From Bryobacterales bacterium (GTDB taxonomy: Bacteria; Acidobacteriota; Terriglobia; Bryobacterales; Bryobacteraceae): a stretch of 47,917 nucleotides of DNA. Position 1 is the first letter of the stretch, and every line of letters begins with the position of its first letter. The stretch covers positions 1-47,917 of the forward strand of contig CANIIC010000009.1 in NCBI GenBank assembly GCA_947467395.1, read 5' to 3'. Under the pieces are notes generated by a model. That model saw only the letters and a list, made by a program, of their open reading frames with translations. It did not search any database and was not told the origin of the DNA. The translations under genes were made by a program, and so were the position numbers. This document shows, in pieces, positions 15,851-21,639 of the stretch.

Positions 15851-16924
15851 TTACCTCGCGGTTAACGCGAGAATCATTTCTTCCATCACAATTCTGTCAT
15901 CCGGGCGGGCATCGCGCAGATCACGATCTGCAGCGAAGACCCGCCCGATCGCTTTTTCCAGAGCTGCTTTCGGGAAGGCCTCGACCGTCTGTTCGATCTG
16001 ACGGGCGCGGTCCGGCCAAATGCGCGCGCCGAGCTTGGTGAAGTGCGCCTGGATTTGTCCGGCACCCTTCAGTCCTGCGGCTCGCGCGGCGAGGGCCATG
16101 CGGAATTGCGTGGCGAGGAACGTCAACGCGAGGGGCATGTACTCGCCTTCGCGCGACAGCATGTCCAGGATTTCCAGCGCGCGTGTGCGATCGTTGCGGC
16201 CCAGGGCGGCAACCAATGCGAAGATCGTGCTGGAGTGTGCGTCGGCGACTAACGCTCCGATGTCTTCGGGCGTGACTTTGCGTTCGGTGCCGGCGTAGAG
16301 GCTTAACTTCTCGATTTCAAGCGAGAGTCGAGCCGCGTCGCCGGACGTAATGTCGAGCAGCAAGGCGAGTTCGGCGAGGCCGAGTTGCAGGCGCTTTTCC
16401 TTCGCGAGTCGCTGTGCCAGGGATCGCGCGGCTTCGGGCGAATACGGACGGAACTCGACCACCGAGGGGATCGCGGCGAAGTATTTCGTGACGCGCTCCA
16501 GCTTGGTCTTGTCTTCGCCTTCGAAATCATAGCGCGAACAATCGATGACTACGATTGTCTCGGGTGTAGGGTTGCGCAGGTAGGAACTGAGAGCATCGAC
16601 GTCGGTGGCGCTGCCCGTGCCTTCTTCTTCGTCGCTGGCAGCGGCTACGCGAGCGCGCGGGACGGCTGCTTCGGCGCTGCTCAACCACAGCAGTCTCTGC
16701 GTGGCGAATAGCGACATGGATCGCGCGTCATCAAGGGCTTCGGCAAGCGGGATCTGGCTCAAGTCGTGACGCGTGAACCCGTCTTCACGGGCCTCGGCTG
16801 GCAGTGCGGCGTCAAACAGCGCTCGACGGCAGCGCTCGCGTTCGAAGGCTTCGGGCCCCAGGAACAGATAGGCCGGCTCGGGGCCGTCCTTCTTGAGTTT
16901 GGCGAGGAACTGATCGGGCGTCAT
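15851..16924 (-). CDS. holA: DNA polymerase III delta subunit
   Basis: A 357-residue clamp-loader subunit that opens the beta sliding clamp. Family features are the N-terminal DQFLAKLKKDGPEPAYLFLGPEAFERERCR, the central IVVIDCSRYDFEGEDKTKLE, and the helical C-terminal domain with LAQRLAKEKRLQLGLAELALLL and MPLALTFLATQFRMAL. It ends the psd-pssA-asd-like-lptE-holA operon and overlaps lptE by one base (TAATG). The lptE-holA pair is also adjacent in E. coli, which supports both calls. Confidence 0.93.
   Translation of the reverse strand: MTPDQFLAKLKKDGPEPAYLFLGPEAFERERCRRALFDAALPAEAREDGFTRHDLSQIPLAEALDDARSMSLFATQRLLWLSSAEAAVPRARVAAASDEEEGTGSATDVDALSSYLRNPTPETIVVIDCSRYDFEGEDKTKLERVTKYFAAIPSVVEFRPYSPEAARSLAQRLAKEKRLQLGLAELALLLDITSGDAARLSLEIEKLSLYAGTERKVTPEDIGALVADAHSSTIFALVAALGRNDRTRALEILDMLSREGEYMPLALTFLATQFRMALAARAAGLKGAGQIQAHFTKLGARIWPDRARQIEQTVEAFPKAALEKAIGRVFAADRDLRDARPDDRIVMEEMILALTAR
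15855..15871. terminator. Short hairpin after rpsT, inside the end of holA
   Basis: CTCGCG (15855-15860) and CGCGAG (15866-15871) form a perfect 6-base stem with loop GTTAA, six bases after the rpsT stop and within the last codons of holA. The + strand continues AATCATTTC, only weakly T-rich. It may end rpsT transcripts. Confidence 0.35.
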
Positions 16925-17445
16925 TAGAAATTTTCCAAGATCGCAGTGACGATCTGCTGTGCCACGCGCGTGCTGGCTCGGCGAAGCGCAGGGTCGCTCT
17001 CTTCGAAATATTCCAGCGGGTCGCGGCTGATCTGGTAGCTCTCTTTCACTTCCATCAGAGGGCGATCGAAGAGCACGCGTCCAGTGGCCCGCTCGGTAAG
17101 CTTCACCCGCATGGTGACGCGCAGGTCGGCCACGTTGGCGCGCTGGGCGGTCGGGTCGAAGATCGTGGGGTTGTAAGCGTAGGTGATGACAGCGCCTTCG
17201 AGGATCATGTCCGCCCGGCCAGGATCGCTGACCACTTTGTAGCGCGTGTGGGCAATGAACTCGCGGGCGAAGGCCTCCGGCATCAGGTCCGTCAGCTTGT
17301 AGCGCACGGTACCGTTGCCGAACGCGGGAATTGCGACCGTCTTCAACGACGGAGGGAGAATGTCGGACTTGCCGGCGATTTTGTAGCCGCAGGAAGAGAG
17401 TGCTGCCGCGAGCATCACCAGCAACAGGGCTCTCACGGAATTCAT
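16924..17445 (-). CDS. lptE: LPS-assembly lipoprotein LptE
   Basis: A 173-residue lipoprotein: signal peptide with lipobox LSSC (Cys19) followed by GYKIAG, the hallmark start of LptE. The domain includes SLKTVAIPAFGNGTVRYKLTD, an RADMILEGAV segment and a C-terminal helix. LptE plugs the LptD barrel and helps place LPS in the outer leaflet, so its presence implies a diderm envelope with LPS or a related glycolipid. It overlaps the Asd-like gene by four bases upstream and holA by one base downstream. Confidence 0.92.
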   Translation of the reverse strand: MNSVRALLLVMLAAALSSCGYKIAGKSDILPPSLKTVAIPAFGNGTVRYKLTDLMPEAFAREFIAHTRYKVVSDPGRADMILEGAVITYAYNPTIFDPTAQRANVADLRVTMRVKLTERATGRVLFDRPLMEVKESYQISRDPLEYFEESDPALRRASTRVAQQIVTAILENF

Positions 17446-18437
17446 CCCAATTGTTCCTTGGCGACGGCGAGCGCGTTTTCCGCGGATAGTTTCAGATTGT
17501 CGGCGACCACCCAGATCCAGCAGGCGCGCGGGTTGTTGCGATCGACGGAGATGGCTCCGACGCTGAGGCCGCTTTGTCCGGCGATGTGTGCGTTTGATGG
17601 AGGCTCATCGGGGCGAACGTCCACGCCGAATTCGTTGAGTTTCTGCGCGATCAGGTCCGTATCAGCTTCAGTTTCAAATTCCACCCACAGAGACATGCTG
17701 TGGCCGTGGAACACCGGGGCCTGAATCAGGCGGATCGACGGCATCGGCAGGCCGGGCCATGCGGAGAGCAGGGAAGCCGTATGTTTTTCGATTCGCTGCT
17801 CCACGCCTTCGAGTGGCTCCATGGCCTCTTCGCCGTAACGGGCCAGCAGGTTGAAGGCGAGCTGCGTGTCGAATACCGTGGTGTCGAGCTTCTGGAACGA
17901 GAGCACGCCAACGGTCTGCTTGCGGAGTTCCTCGATGCCTTTTTGGCCGCGCTCGCTGGCCGGTTCAAAGACGTGGGCGACGGAGGATCGCAGTTTGCCG
18001 GTGACGGACAAACGCGCCAGTAACGTGGTGAGAGCGATGGCCGCGGGATGTGCGATCACCTGGAGCTTCGCGCTGGAGCGCTTCAGGTTCGCGGGTTCCG
18101 CCGAAGGTGCGCGCAGCCGGGCTTCGGGTTGTTCGTCGAGTGCCGCAGTGAGGTCGATCAGCGTGACCTGAGTCGCTAGCTTCAGCGCTCGGCGGGCTGC
18201 CGCAGGTGAGCCGGCCAGAAACGCGACGGTGTTGCCTTCGAGCGTCTCTGCGGTGAGCGGCGTCATGACGACAGCGTCTTCATCATCGGTAGAGAGCACA
18301 GGAGAGGTGTCGGCGGTGGCAGAAAGCAGGTGAATGCGAGGCTTCGGCTCTTCGGCCTCGAGCACCTCGCGGAGTTCGCGGGCAAGAAGCGTATCGCCGC
18401 CGACAACGGCGACGTGATGTTCGGAAGTTTTAGCCAA
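17442..18437 (-). CDS. Aspartate-semialdehyde dehydrogenase-like pseudoenzyme (Usg type)
   Basis: About 331 residues with the full Asd layout: a Rossmann start (HHVAVVGGDTLLARELREVL), EPASERGQKGIEELRKQT in the middle and APVFHGHSMSLWVEFE late. The active site is altered. The block that reads NPNC in Asd reads HPAA (residues 130-133), so the catalytic Cys is Ala, and the substrate Arg before PVF(Y)GHS is Gln239. The active-site His246 remains. E. coli Usg is a comparable inactive homologue. I prefer a TTG start at 18437 (GGAG eight bases upstream, 8-base overlap with pssA) over a GTG at 18479. It sits between pssA and lptE. Role unknown. Confidence 0.85.
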   Translation of the reverse strand: MAKTSEHHVAVVGGDTLLARELREVLEAEEPKPRIHLLSATADTSPVLSTDDEDAVVMTPLTAETLEGNTVAFLAGSPAAARRALKLATQVTLIDLTAALDEQPEARLRAPSAEPANLKRSSAKLQVIAHPAAIALTTLLARLSVTGKLRSSVAHVFEPASERGQKGIEELRKQTVGVLSFQKLDTTVFDTQLAFNLLARYGEEAMEPLEGVEQRIEKHTASLLSAWPGLPMPSIRLIQAPVFHGHSMSLWVEFETEADTDLIAQKLNEFGVDVRPDEPPSNAHIAGQSGLSVGAISVDRNNPRACWIWVVADNLKLSAENALAVAKEQLG

Positions 18438-19326
18438 CGTGCTGCTCCGTAGGGGGCGGTTGAGGATGTTGATGTCCACGCCAACGGCGGCGCACCAGCC
18501 CGCCGACGCGAATCACGATGCCGCTGCCAACGTAGCTGACGGCCATCGCCAGCAGGACCGGCTGAGGGAAGGTCCAGACCATGTAGATCGCGGCGCCAGT
18601 GAAGACGAAGGAAATGGGCGACTGCGGTTTGACGAAATTCAGGTCCTTGAAGCTGGGGTAGCGCCACGTGCTGACCATCAGGAACGCCAGCAGGCCGAGC
18701 AGGCACAACCAGGCGACCGAGAACTGCCACGAACGCAGCGGCAAGCTGCCGGCCGCGAAGATGATCGCGGCGATTGCGGCTGCCGCCGACGGGATCGGCA
18801 TGCCGACAAAATATTTGCGGTCGGGGCGGCCGGGGTTTTTCGGGACCGGGTTGGTCTGGATGTTGAAACGCGCCAGACGCATCGCGCCGCACAGCAGGTA
18901 AATGAACGAGAAGAAGTACCCGGCGCGACGGAGCTGTTCCATCGTGAACGGCGCGGGCGGGTTGCTTGTGAATTCGATGCCCCAGGCAAAGGCCATGACG
19001 GCGGGGGCGATGCCGAATGTCACGACGTCGGCCATGGAATCCATCTCGCGGCCGAAGTCGGAGACGGTGTTCGTCATACGCGCGATGCGCCCGTCGAGGC
19101 CATCGAGAAAGACAGCAGCTCCGATGGCGACGCAGGCTTGCGTGAAGTGTTGTTGCGCGGCTCCACCGGCGGTTGCCGTTTGCATGGCGCCGAAGAACGA
19201 CTCCATGATTGCGTAGAAACCCAGAAACACGTTGCCTGCCGTGAAGAACGTGGGCAGCGCATACGCGGCGCGACGTGGTTTGCGATCGGGCGATTTCGGA
19301 TCGATCAGCCGTTCAGCAAGGTTCAT
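18430..19326 (-). CDS. pssA: CDP-diacylglycerol-serine O-phosphatidyltransferase
   Basis: A 298-residue integral membrane enzyme making phosphatidylserine from CDP-diacylglycerol and serine. The CDP-alcohol phosphotransferase motif is at residues 75-100 (DGLDGRIARMTNT, then FGREMDSMAD), with membrane helices before and after it. The ATG at 19326 is chosen because it overlaps the psd stop in ATGA; an upstream start would add 25 basic, unmatched residues. The C-terminus is extended by an Arg/His/Pro-rich tail that overlaps the following Asd-like gene. Confidence 0.93.
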   Translation of the reverse strand: MNLAERLIDPKSPDRKPRRAAYALPTFFTAGNVFLGFYAIMESFFGAMQTATAGGAAQQHFTQACVAIGAAVFLDGLDGRIARMTNTVSDFGREMDSMADVVTFGIAPAVMAFAWGIEFTSNPPAPFTMEQLRRAGYFFSFIYLLCGAMRLARFNIQTNPVPKNPGRPDRKYFVGMPIPSAAAAIAAIIFAAGSLPLRSWQFSVAWLCLLGLLAFLMVSTWRYPSFKDLNFVKPQSPISFVFTGAAIYMVWTFPQPVLLAMAVSYVGSGIVIRVGGLVRRRWRGHQHPQPPPTEQHVG

Positions 19327-19943
19327 GCGTTCTCCCGCATCCGTGCGAGGATGCTTTCGCCGGCGACGACGCGCGAGCCGATCTTTGCGGTGACGTCCCA
19401 CTCCGGGCCGAGCACGATATCTGTGCGTGAGCCGAACTTGATCAGGCCGACACGTTCGCCCGGCTGCAGTACGTCGCCCACCTTCTTGTAGCAGATGATG
19501 CGCCGAGCGATGAGCCCGGCGATCTGGCTGAAGATGACCTTGGTCTGGCGGCCACCCACCACGCCTTCGACAGTGAAAATGTTCTGTTCGTTGGCACTGC
19601 TGGCGTTCGGGTCAGCGGCGTTCAGGAACTCGCCGCGCTTATATTCGATGGCCGTGATCTTGCCTGGAATCGGCGTGCGATTCACGTGGACGTCGAAGAC
19701 GTTCAGGAAGATGCTGATGGTCGTGACGCCAGCGTCGTTTTGCCGGACCACGACGACTTTGCCGTCGGCCGGGGACACGGCCACGGCGCCGGGAGGCACG
19801 GTTCGATCCGGGTCACGGAAGAAGTTCAGACAAAACGCCGCCAGGATGTAGAACGGAATGGCCCAGGGCCAGCCGACCAGAAACGTGACAGCGGCGGCGC
19901 CCACTAAGCAGCCGATCGCATAAGAGATCCCGTAGGACACCAT
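19323..19943 (-). CDS. psd: Phosphatidylserine decarboxylase proenzyme, short type
   Basis: A 206-residue self-processing enzyme that decarboxylates phosphatidylserine to phosphatidylethanolamine. N-terminal hydrophobic segments (residues 1-40) anchor it. SPADGKVVVV and FLNVFDVHVNRTPI are family blocks, and the self-cleavage Gly-Ser is at 171-172 in LIKFGSRTD, where the Ser becomes the pyruvoyl group. Length fits the short archaetidylserine-type family. It is first in the operon and is followed by pssA with a four-base overlap, so synthesis and decarboxylation of PS are encoded together. Confidence 0.95.
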   Translation of the reverse strand: MVSYGISYAIGCLVGAAAVTFLVGWPWAIPFYILAAFCLNFFRDPDRTVPPGAVAVSPADGKVVVVRQNDAGVTTISIFLNVFDVHVNRTPIPGKITAIEYKRGEFLNAADPNASSANEQNIFTVEGVVGGRQTKVIFSQIAGLIARRIICYKKVGDVLQPGERVGLIKFGSRTDIVLGPEWDVTAKIGSRVVAGESILARMRENA

Positions 19944-19985: not shown

Positions 19986-20001
19986 TATAATCGTCACAAT
20001 G
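19986..20001 (+). promoter_or_regulatory. Consensus -10 seven bases before the CorA-like start
   Basis: A perfect TATAAT (19986-19991) is followed by CGTCACA and the ATG at 19999. TTGAGC at 19961-19966 could be a -35 with a long 19-base spacer. No Shine-Dalgarno can fit, so a leaderless mRNA is predicted. Confidence 0.6.
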
Positions 20002-21639
20002 CCGGCGCAGGCCCAGCACCTTCATACCTACTTCCTGTTTCCGTTTTCGATTGACAAGGAAGAGGTGCGCGAACGCTACCCCCACCTGTGGCGCGAGAAC
20101 GCCCGTTGGATCGACGGATTGGACGAATGGATCGCCGCCAGCCGCTCTTCCCTGGCCGGCATGGAGTGGAAGCGCACCCCGTATACGCAGTTCGACATGG
20201 GGTCGCGTGCGTATCAGGACATGATCTTCTTCCACCCGATCGTGCGGCGCGTGTTCTTCGATACGACCGGGCAGGAAGGCAGCCGGGAATCCCTGTTGCG
20301 CTGTTACACCATGACGCCGCCGCCGGGCGCGAAGCTCTGGTACGACTGCGCGGACGCCAAGCAGCGGCAGGCCTCGGTAGAGATCACGGATCTGCGCCTG
20401 TTCTTGTTCGCGAACGGCGTGGGTGTCCTCTCGATCGGCGTTGAGGCATGGGGGCTTCCGGTCAAAGAGGCCCTGTGGATCAACGAAGCGATGCGCAAGG
20501 TATACCCGTCCAGTTCACGCCAGATTCGCGAAGGGCGCACGCCTTCGCTGGAAGCCCTCGTGCTGGAAACGCAGGGGAAACGCACCCCGCTGGTCCGCGA
20601 GACGTTTGAAACAGGCGAGATGGTGGGTTTCCAGCCGCCTCTGGCGTCGACGATTCAAGCGCTGCTGTATTTCGCGGATTACAACCGGCAGGAGTTTGAA
20701 CCTGTTCTGGATGAACGGATGATCGTCTACTCGTATTTTGAGATCGATCCTGCGAGTGTGCCCGAGAATTACAAGGACTCAGAGGAATATCAGGTCCTAT
20801 TGAGCCGCCTGCTGTACGTGGAACAGGATGGCGAGTCGTATCGCTACGAAGTGAACTTCCTGCGGGAGCGCATGCAGGAACATCTCTATCATCGGTGGGC
20901 GCACGAAGGCACGTATTACGGCTTTACCAGCTACAGCAACATCACGGCGGCTATCGGGAAGTTCGACTGCGGCTCACATCAGCTGTCAGAAGGCTTCCTG
21001 ATTCACCGGATGTTCGATACTCGCTACTATCTGATGGCGCTGGTGGGGCTGTTCTATCGCGCGACGCTTCTGGATTTCAGCGAGCGCACGGCATTAGTCT
21101 CCCGCAGGTTGTATGAATCCGAAATCCAGCTGACAGCGGCCAATGTGACGATGGCGAACGAGCTGCGAGCCGAGTTCCTGCATTTTTCGAACTACTGGCA
21201 TTTCGATGAGCTAGCGAACAAGGAAGAAGAACTGGAGCACTTTGAGCTACAGTGCCGCTTCTATCGCATCACGGCGATGAAGGCCGAAATTGAGTCCGAA
21301 GTGCGGTCCTTGGGCGCGTCTCTGCAGGAGCACTACCAGTTCCGGAACACGGAGGCCATTAACCGCGTCGCCATGCTGAGCATGATTCTGGGCCTGGGCG
21401 CGATGATCACGGGCTTCTTCGGGATGAATTTCGGCAAGGGGTTCGCTGCGGCTGTCTTCGAGCCTGCGCCGGAATCGGCACTGCTGTATTACGCGGCGAT
21501 CGTGCTGGTGTTGATCGTATTCTTCGGTGCGCTGTCTTTCTCGATTTACGTGGTGGTTTCTAATTGGGGCGACTACAAGGACATTCTCAACCCGAACGCG
21601 AAGAAGGAGCGGGCGCGGAGCCTGCGGCGCGAACTTTAG
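19999..21639 (+). CDS. CorA-like membrane protein with unrecognised N-terminal domain
   Basis: A 546-residue protein. The end has the CorA fold signature: a long charged helical stalk (about residues 370-455), a first membrane helix closing in GFFGMNFG (GMN at 475-477), a short loop, a second membrane helix (LLYYAAIVLVLIVFFGALSF) and a basic tail rich in Lys/Arg. GMN is the selectivity motif of CorA-family divalent cation channels. The first roughly 370 residues (YFLFPFSIDKEEVRERYPHL onward) do not resemble the usual CorA cytoplasmic domain and I do not recognise them. It is monocistronic, divergent from psd. The stop overlaps the M1 peptidase stop by four bases. Confidence 0.8.
   Translation: MPAQAQHLHTYFLFPFSIDKEEVRERYPHLWRENARWIDGLDEWIAASRSSLAGMEWKRTPYTQFDMGSRAYQDMIFFHPIVRRVFFDTTGQEGSRESLLRCYTMTPPPGAKLWYDCADAKQRQASVEITDLRLFLFANGVGVLSIGVEAWGLPVKEALWINEAMRKVYPSSSRQIREGRTPSLEALVLETQGKRTPLVRETFETGEMVGFQPPLASTIQALLYFADYNRQEFEPVLDERMIVYSYFEIDPASVPENYKDSEEYQVLLSRLLYVEQDGESYRYEVNFLRERMQEHLYHRWAHEGTYYGFTSYSNITAAIGKFDCGSHQLSEGFLIHRMFDTRYYLMALVGLFYRATLLDFSERTALVSRRLYESEIQLTAANVTMANELRAEFLHFSNYWHFDELANKEEELEHFELQCRFYRITAMKAEIESEVRSLGASLQEHYQFRNTEAINRVAMLSMILGLGAMITGFFGMNFGKGFAAAVFEPAPESALLYYAAIVLVLIVFFGALSFSIYVVVSNWGDYKDILNPNAKKERARSLRREL

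Follow-up and report, generated by a model that had tools for sequence, protein, structure and literature searches.

A widespread Acidobacteriota branch of Usg-like pseudo-aspartate-semialdehyde dehydrogenases tied to phosphatidylethanolamine genes

The analysis of a Bryobacterales lipid gene cluster led to a widespread Acidobacteriota branch of Usg-like proteins which are related to aspartate-semialdehyde dehydrogenase (Asd), lack its catalytic cysteine and are tied to the genes of phosphatidylethanolamine (PE) synthesis. Their retention beside these genes suggests that they help to control membrane building and do not serve Asd catalysis. The DNA under study is a stretch of 47,917 nt from a Bryobacterales bacterium (assembly GCA_947467395.1, contig CANIIC010000009.1), hereafter the window; "class" denotes the class of the window genome, Terriglobia. 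The protein of the minus-strand open reading frame 18437-17442 and its homologues are labeled X. In the window, X is the third gene of an overlapping, same-strand run, psd-pssA-X-lptE-holA, in which the neighboring genes were named from Pfam and NCBIfam matches:

15851 to 16924, minus strand: holA, DNA polymerase III delta (TIGR01128, 181 bits, cut-off 80), in 1-bp contact with lptE
16924 to 17445, minus strand: lptE (PF04390, 45.9 bits, cut-off 23), overlapping the end of X by 4 bp (ATGA)
17442 to 18437, minus strand: X, putative pseudo-Asd (Usg-like) of 331 aa with a TTG start and with HP at residues 130-131, where Asd has the NC of NPNC
18430 to 19326, minus strand: pssA, CDP-diacylglycerol-serine O-phosphatidyltransferase (TIGR00473, 122 bits, cut-off 107), overlapping the start of X by 8 bp
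19323 to 19943, minus strand: psd, phosphatidylserine decarboxylase (PF02666, 130.4 bits, cut-off 22), overlapping pssA by 4 bp

The TTG start of X at 18437 is preceded by GGAG. A preliminary description of the window had placed an Asd homologue without the catalytic Cys between pssA and lptE, and this was borne out by the PF02774, TIGR00473 and PF04390 matches and by the alignment presented below. Divergent from psd lies an ORF of 546 aa (19999-21639, plus strand), the C-terminal end of which consists of two hydrophobic stretches with GMNFG, a motif that, on reading, recalls the CorA-type GMN motif.

The X protein of the window scores above the cut-off of the Pfam family Semialdhyde_dhC, PF02774 (61.7 bits, cut-off 26). 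In NCBIfam it hits five models, each carrying the name aspartate-semialdehyde dehydrogenase, at scores far under the cut-offs: among the curated Asd models it reaches 80 against 324 bits for asd_B (TIGR01296) and 81.6 against 223 bits for PRK14874. PRK05671, the best of the five (109.5 against 284 bits), and PRK08040 (53.4 against 273 bits) are what we take to be Usg-type models, built on other phyla. An AlphaFold2 model, calculated from the window protein plus 39 relatives, had a pLDDT of 85.9 and a pTM of 0.86, with a weak stretch at residues 191-202. The top VIA-align match of this model was the Pseudomonas aeruginosa structure 2hjs, over the full length (Z 30.7, rmsd 3.3, 310 residues), with which the Streptococcus pneumoniae Asd 2gz3 (Z 30.4) and the Vibrio cholerae Asd tie, the Asd structures having Z values of 26-31; in Foldseek, 2hjs came second to the V. 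cholerae Asd 2qz9. By the PF02774 match and these structure matches, X is predicted to have the full-length Asd fold, including the C-terminal dimerization domain; the full-length match of the model to Asd structures agrees with the earlier statement that the overall fold is kept.

The active site was analyzed in a MAFFT alignment, numbered after Escherichia coli Asd, of 119 X proteins (81 from the class and 38 from other classes, with L138 present and L064 and L087 absent), seven Asd, E. coli Usg and 2hjs. The seven Asd controls all retain R102, C135, Q162, E241, K244, R267 and H274, together with the Gly residues of the NADP loop. In the column of the catalytic residue C135, Cys is present in 7/7 Asd controls and in 0/119 X, of which 106 have Pro and two a gap. 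The residue of the window protein in this column is Pro131, at which a helix begins in the AlphaFold2 model. The preliminary description had read the replacement as Ala, with HPAA in place of NPNC, and this reading proved to be two columns off. Among the alignment methods, pairwise phmmer alone gave Ala at the Cys position, which was ruled out on the following grounds: in the MAFFT alignment many X from outside the class read NPHP at the NPNC site, which sets HP opposite NC, and an hhalign run of the class X profile against an Asd profile was gap-free from the Cys loop to the next conserved block, again with HP on NC. One X is an exception, L093, in which a Cys stands one position ahead of the catalytic column (SPCA), as it does in 2hjs; its catalytic column is gapped, and a shifted alignment could put the Cys there. 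In L095 and L115, a Cys is found no more than four columns away from the catalytic one.

The substrate-binding R267 is replaced by Gln in 92 of the 119 X, including the window protein as previously described, and is Arg in seven; the K244 column has Arg in 85. The His of the GHS motif, which had been described as kept, is indeed present in the window protein, but this does not extend to the clade, in which the H274 column has His in 51 and Tyr in 53 of 119. A feature absent from the preliminary description is the degeneracy of the NADP loop GATGAVG, the middle Gly of which is retained in 1/119 X. As far as sequence can tell, the pseudoenzyme status of X is well supported. X could instead be a different, still active enzyme or a ligand-binding sensor, with HP, PASE and PVFH at the core of a rebuilt pocket that serves a Cys-free reaction. 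The conservation of these new motifs (Pro in 106, the PVFH His in 107 and the Ser of the PAS block in 115 of 119) speaks for such a rebuilt pocket, but 118/119 have lost the central Gly of the NADP loop, His is found at H274 in only 51, and no co-conserved new catalytic set is evident, so that we consider an active enzyme or sensor improbable.

A separate Asd of the active type, for which the preliminary description had proposed a check, is present in the genome. The window genome, which is 95.67% complete, holds two further PF02774 members: L001, an Asd with an intact NPNCST block adjoining a putative lysC, and L002, a putative ArgC, where the names lysC and ArgC were assigned by reading the sequences.

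X is common in the class and extends beyond it. A match at 1e-10 was obtained in 216 of 250 class genomes, the window genome included, although true Asd may be among the weakest of these matches (G045, 1.9e-11): a second hit in genome G004 (4.6e-11, 25% identity) looks like one. In the phylum sample, 82 of 199 genomes matched at 1e-5, 21 of them from the window's class and 61 from other classes. Inspection of 40 places outside the class showed that 38 hold X and that two (L135 and L136) are true Asd by sequence. In a 68-row tree, a starred branch (100/99) separated 62 X from the six Asd/Usg rows, and in a 40-row tree 32 X were split from the eight other rows (100/100); the comparison beyond Acidobacteriota consists of E. 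coli Asd, E. coli Usg and four PDB proteins, and samples the origin of X thinly. Two records with Bryobacterales-like psd-pssA-X loci have names that look wrong, "Bordetella parapertussis" (L034, whose X is 70% identical to that of the window) and "Nevskia soli" (L066).

Selection was estimated with NG86 on distinct close pairs. Omega was 0.047-0.233 for X (median 0.071, 12 pairs), 0.052-0.209 for pssA (median 0.086, 12 pairs) and 0.065-0.256 for lptE (median 0.133, 11 pairs, one saturated); these values are rough, as dS is often about 1 or above, six of the 12 pairs fall among four loci and are not independent, and the medians were taken by hand. Selection on X is purifying and similar to that on pssA. 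For the pair with the highest omega of X (L011/L044), a frameshift was considered as the cause, and none was seen, the differences being spread along the protein. Among the class matches listed, only G234 has an in-frame stop (G234:C334:6049-7011, an X frame with one in-frame TAG), which reflects either an error or recent decay. A recent point loss or a pseudogene is ruled out by the omega values, by the lack of the Cys in every aligned X and by the occurrence of a single in-frame stop (G234) among the matches listed. The earlier argument against decay thus held: neither a homologue with Cys in the catalytic column (0/119, two gapped) nor relaxed selection (omega 0.047-0.233) was seen. One might still regard X as a decaying Asd duplicate heading for loss, given that it has been lost in several lineages and that one pair, L011/L044, reaches an omega of 0.233. 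This is the least probable of the accounts that we considered, being disfavored by class- and phylum-wide persistence, by purifying selection and by the single in-frame stop, that of G234, among the matches listed.

Gene neighbors were counted at 120 distinct X loci, a subset of all matches, consisting of 83 class loci (drawn from the window, 29 of the 216 matching genomes, 20 hand-picked places and 44/44 places of another search) and 37 loci outside the class (from 40 places picked from the phylum match list). The true Asd L135 and L136, duplicates and L138, which was missed by tblastn and has psd-pssA beside X, were left out of this count. pssA lies upstream of X on the same strand in 109 of the 120 loci, that is in 81/83 class and 28/37 outside loci, with a median gap of -8 bp in the class and -7.5 bp outside it. 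In the two class loci where pssA was not seen, L062 and L064, the contig begins 58 and 0 bases before X, respectively. Of the 81 class loci with pssA, 79 have gaps of -60 to +150 bp; those of the other two (L023, -151; L075, -149) we take to be artifacts of start-codon choice. Downstream of X, lptE was found in 77 of the 83 class loci (at -60 to +150 bp in 71) and in none of the 37 outside ones. The retention of X in a coupled lipid/LPS operon, as the preliminary description had it, holds for pssA, the linkage to which is class-wide and recurs in other classes, and less so for the more variable lptE.

Nine of the 37 outside loci lack pssA beside X, and three of these (L101, L107 and L132) have fewer than 600 bases upstream. 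In five of the nine, the gene directly downstream encodes an ABC transporter whose best NCBIfam model is MsbA_lipidA (5/5 tested; 544-574 bits, below the cut-off of 602). In the other four of the nine, X is followed by an untyped gene of a size similar to that of the MsbA-like ones (L107), a 291-aa gene (L102 and L108; YicC-like in L102) and a tRNA-synthetase-like gene (L132). In L113 and L127, the order psd-pssA-X is followed by an MsbA-like gene (584.6 and 516.5 bits, both under the same cut-off). Together with the lptE loci, these two make for two separate arrangements in which X has PE-synthesis genes on one side and a gene of LPS export on the other. Further loci have other genes in the downstream position, and the downstream gene differs by lineage. 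No TruA match and no ORF with E. coli LeuA-D as its best match were found in L100-L156. In eight outside loci (L109:4858-5724, and L106, L111, L114, L116, L119, L122 and L124), a related gene of about 250-290 aa was observed at or just past the end of X, overlapping it by 4 bp in L106, L109, L111 and L124; its N-terminus reads as signal-peptide-like, followed by an apparent coiled coil, and the three members tested (L109, L111 and L119) had no Pfam match at 1e-5.

To see what becomes of the locus where X is missing, 18 X-less genomes of the class and 20 of the phylum sample, a part of those without X in either sample, were asked for pssA. pssA without X was found in 16 of the 18 and in 19 of the 20. 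A family HMM detected no diverged X in the 38 pssA-like loci of these genomes (17 from 16 class genomes and 21 from 19 phylum genomes, with about 1.5 kb per side); L169 is uninformative behind pssA, where its contig ends. Because several lineages keep pssA without X, the latter is accessory, and dispensable for phosphatidylserine synthesis as such. lptE stands directly behind pssA in nine of the 16 X-less class genomes, with gaps of -4 to +132 bp, and not in the other seven. In one group without X (f8 g32, L152-L155), the place of X and lptE behind pssA is taken by a gene with weak similarity to PdxB (3e-15 to 7e-14). When PssA columns were compared between class genomes with and without X, only T87 was over the threshold; PssA thus bears little trace of X, which speaks against an X-specific interface, unless that interface is held constant by other constraints.

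These arrangements bear on two further explanations. X might have no trans-acting role at all, its frame being kept mainly to couple the translation of pssA to that of lptE, as the overlapping junctions on both sides of X in the window would allow. We regard this as very improbable: pssA and lptE are directly joined in nine X-less genomes, X is kept elsewhere without lptE, its omega is as low as that of pssA, and its protein motifs are conserved across classes. The pseudoenzyme could also have its partner in the machinery of LPS export or in some other envelope protein (LptE, MsbA), and not in PssA, its place next to pssA being inherited from an old operon. The 77/83 class loci with lptE behind X are in favor of such a partner, as are the MsbA-like genes behind X in L113, in L127 and in the five tested loci where no adjacent pssA was found. 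Outside the class, however, lptE is beside X in 0/37 loci against 28/37 for pssA, the downstream gene varies by lineage, and lptE keeps its place after the loss of X (9/16), which makes an LPS-export partner rather unlikely. For the same reasons, namely 28/37 against 0/37 outside loci and the persistence of pssA-lptE without X in 9/16 genomes, PssA or PE synthesis is a better candidate partner than LptE.

Our preferred reading, held with moderate confidence, is that X is a non-catalytic, Usg-like relative of Asd, kept for a job other than that of Asd in membrane-lipid synthesis. Like Asd, X would form dimers by way of its conserved C-terminal domain. Its target on the inner face of the membrane would be PssA, with or without Psd, and X would serve there as an accessory or regulatory subunit, tuning the output of PE; in loci where lptE or an msbA-like gene comes next, X may contribute to keeping the supply of phospholipid in step with the export of LPS. 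PssA is favored above all by being the most constant neighbor of X (109/120 loci), and a wider role in the envelope by the lptE or msbA-like gene next to X. We count against a link of X with PssA the presence of pssA in X-less genomes, the restriction of covarying PssA columns to T87 and the nine of 37 outside loci without pssA; a constant neighbor can also reflect an inherited operon without functional contact. Still, the near-fixed neighbor pssA provides a concrete partner candidate for a widespread relative of Usg. If true, this reading would define a protein-level control point on PE synthesis, and perhaps on the balance of phospholipid and LPS. Genes of the X type, if called Asd from their fold, are mis-annotated.

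Compared with the Asd of its own genome (L001), X has in common the full-length fold and the C-terminal dimerization domain, but it is only about 20% identical, has no Cys, has mostly lost the substrate Arg residues and has an altered NADP loop. E. coli Usg (b2319) is also a member of the Asd fold family without the Cys (Ser, in VPDS) and with the same R267Q and K244R replacements; unlike X, it retains GATGAVG and H274, and the two are about 22% identical. The gene orders differ too, usg lying in pdxB-usg-truA-dedA-accD, with neither pssA nor lptE there, and X in psd-pssA-X-lptE-holA. We know of no mechanism for Usg. For Salmonella usg, oxidative-survival and virulence phenotypes have been described, and truA complements a usg deletion (PMC6358828); the passages available from that paper do not give a biochemical role, and those from PMC8743551 merely cite it. 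The literature search, in which sources were available in part, returned no account of X in Acidobacteriota.

The best PDB sequence match of X is 2hjs (6e-21), a P. aeruginosa USG-1 homologue which we take to be PA3116. It resembles X in R267Q, K244R, QAPVF and a residue other than Cys (Ala) in the catalytic column, and departs from it in retaining the GATG of the NADP loop and in having Asp at H274; its gene lies presumably near asd, fimV and truA and not near pssA. The 40-row tree has a branch, at 86/80 and not starred, with six Asd on one side and E. coli Usg, 2hjs and X on the other, and X with 2hjs is set against the rest at 96/92, which makes 2hjs the closest non-X row; a grouping of X with E. 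coli Usg to the exclusion of 2hjs was not rejected (p-AU 0.206). In the 68-row tree, which has fewer Asd, E. coli Usg joins the V. cholerae Asd (86/50). The parallel with E. coli Usg that had been drawn from the window thus stands as regards the common R267Q and K244R and may reflect kinship, while the branch that would carry it is the unstarred one. From these common residues, X may be kin to E. coli Usg and to Pseudomonas PA3116, the only two Usg-like proteins in the comparison, and a single old loss of the Cys for Usg and X is plausible but not settled. A bolder and doubtful extension would make X and the Usg proteins one ancient Asd-derived pseudoenzyme line that regulates membrane lipids, in which the Acidobacteriota X would bind a metabolite in its reshaped pocket and set the output of PssA and Psd in step with LPS export, represented by the downstream lptE or msbA, while the Usg of Proteobacteria, near dedA and accD, would do a related job.
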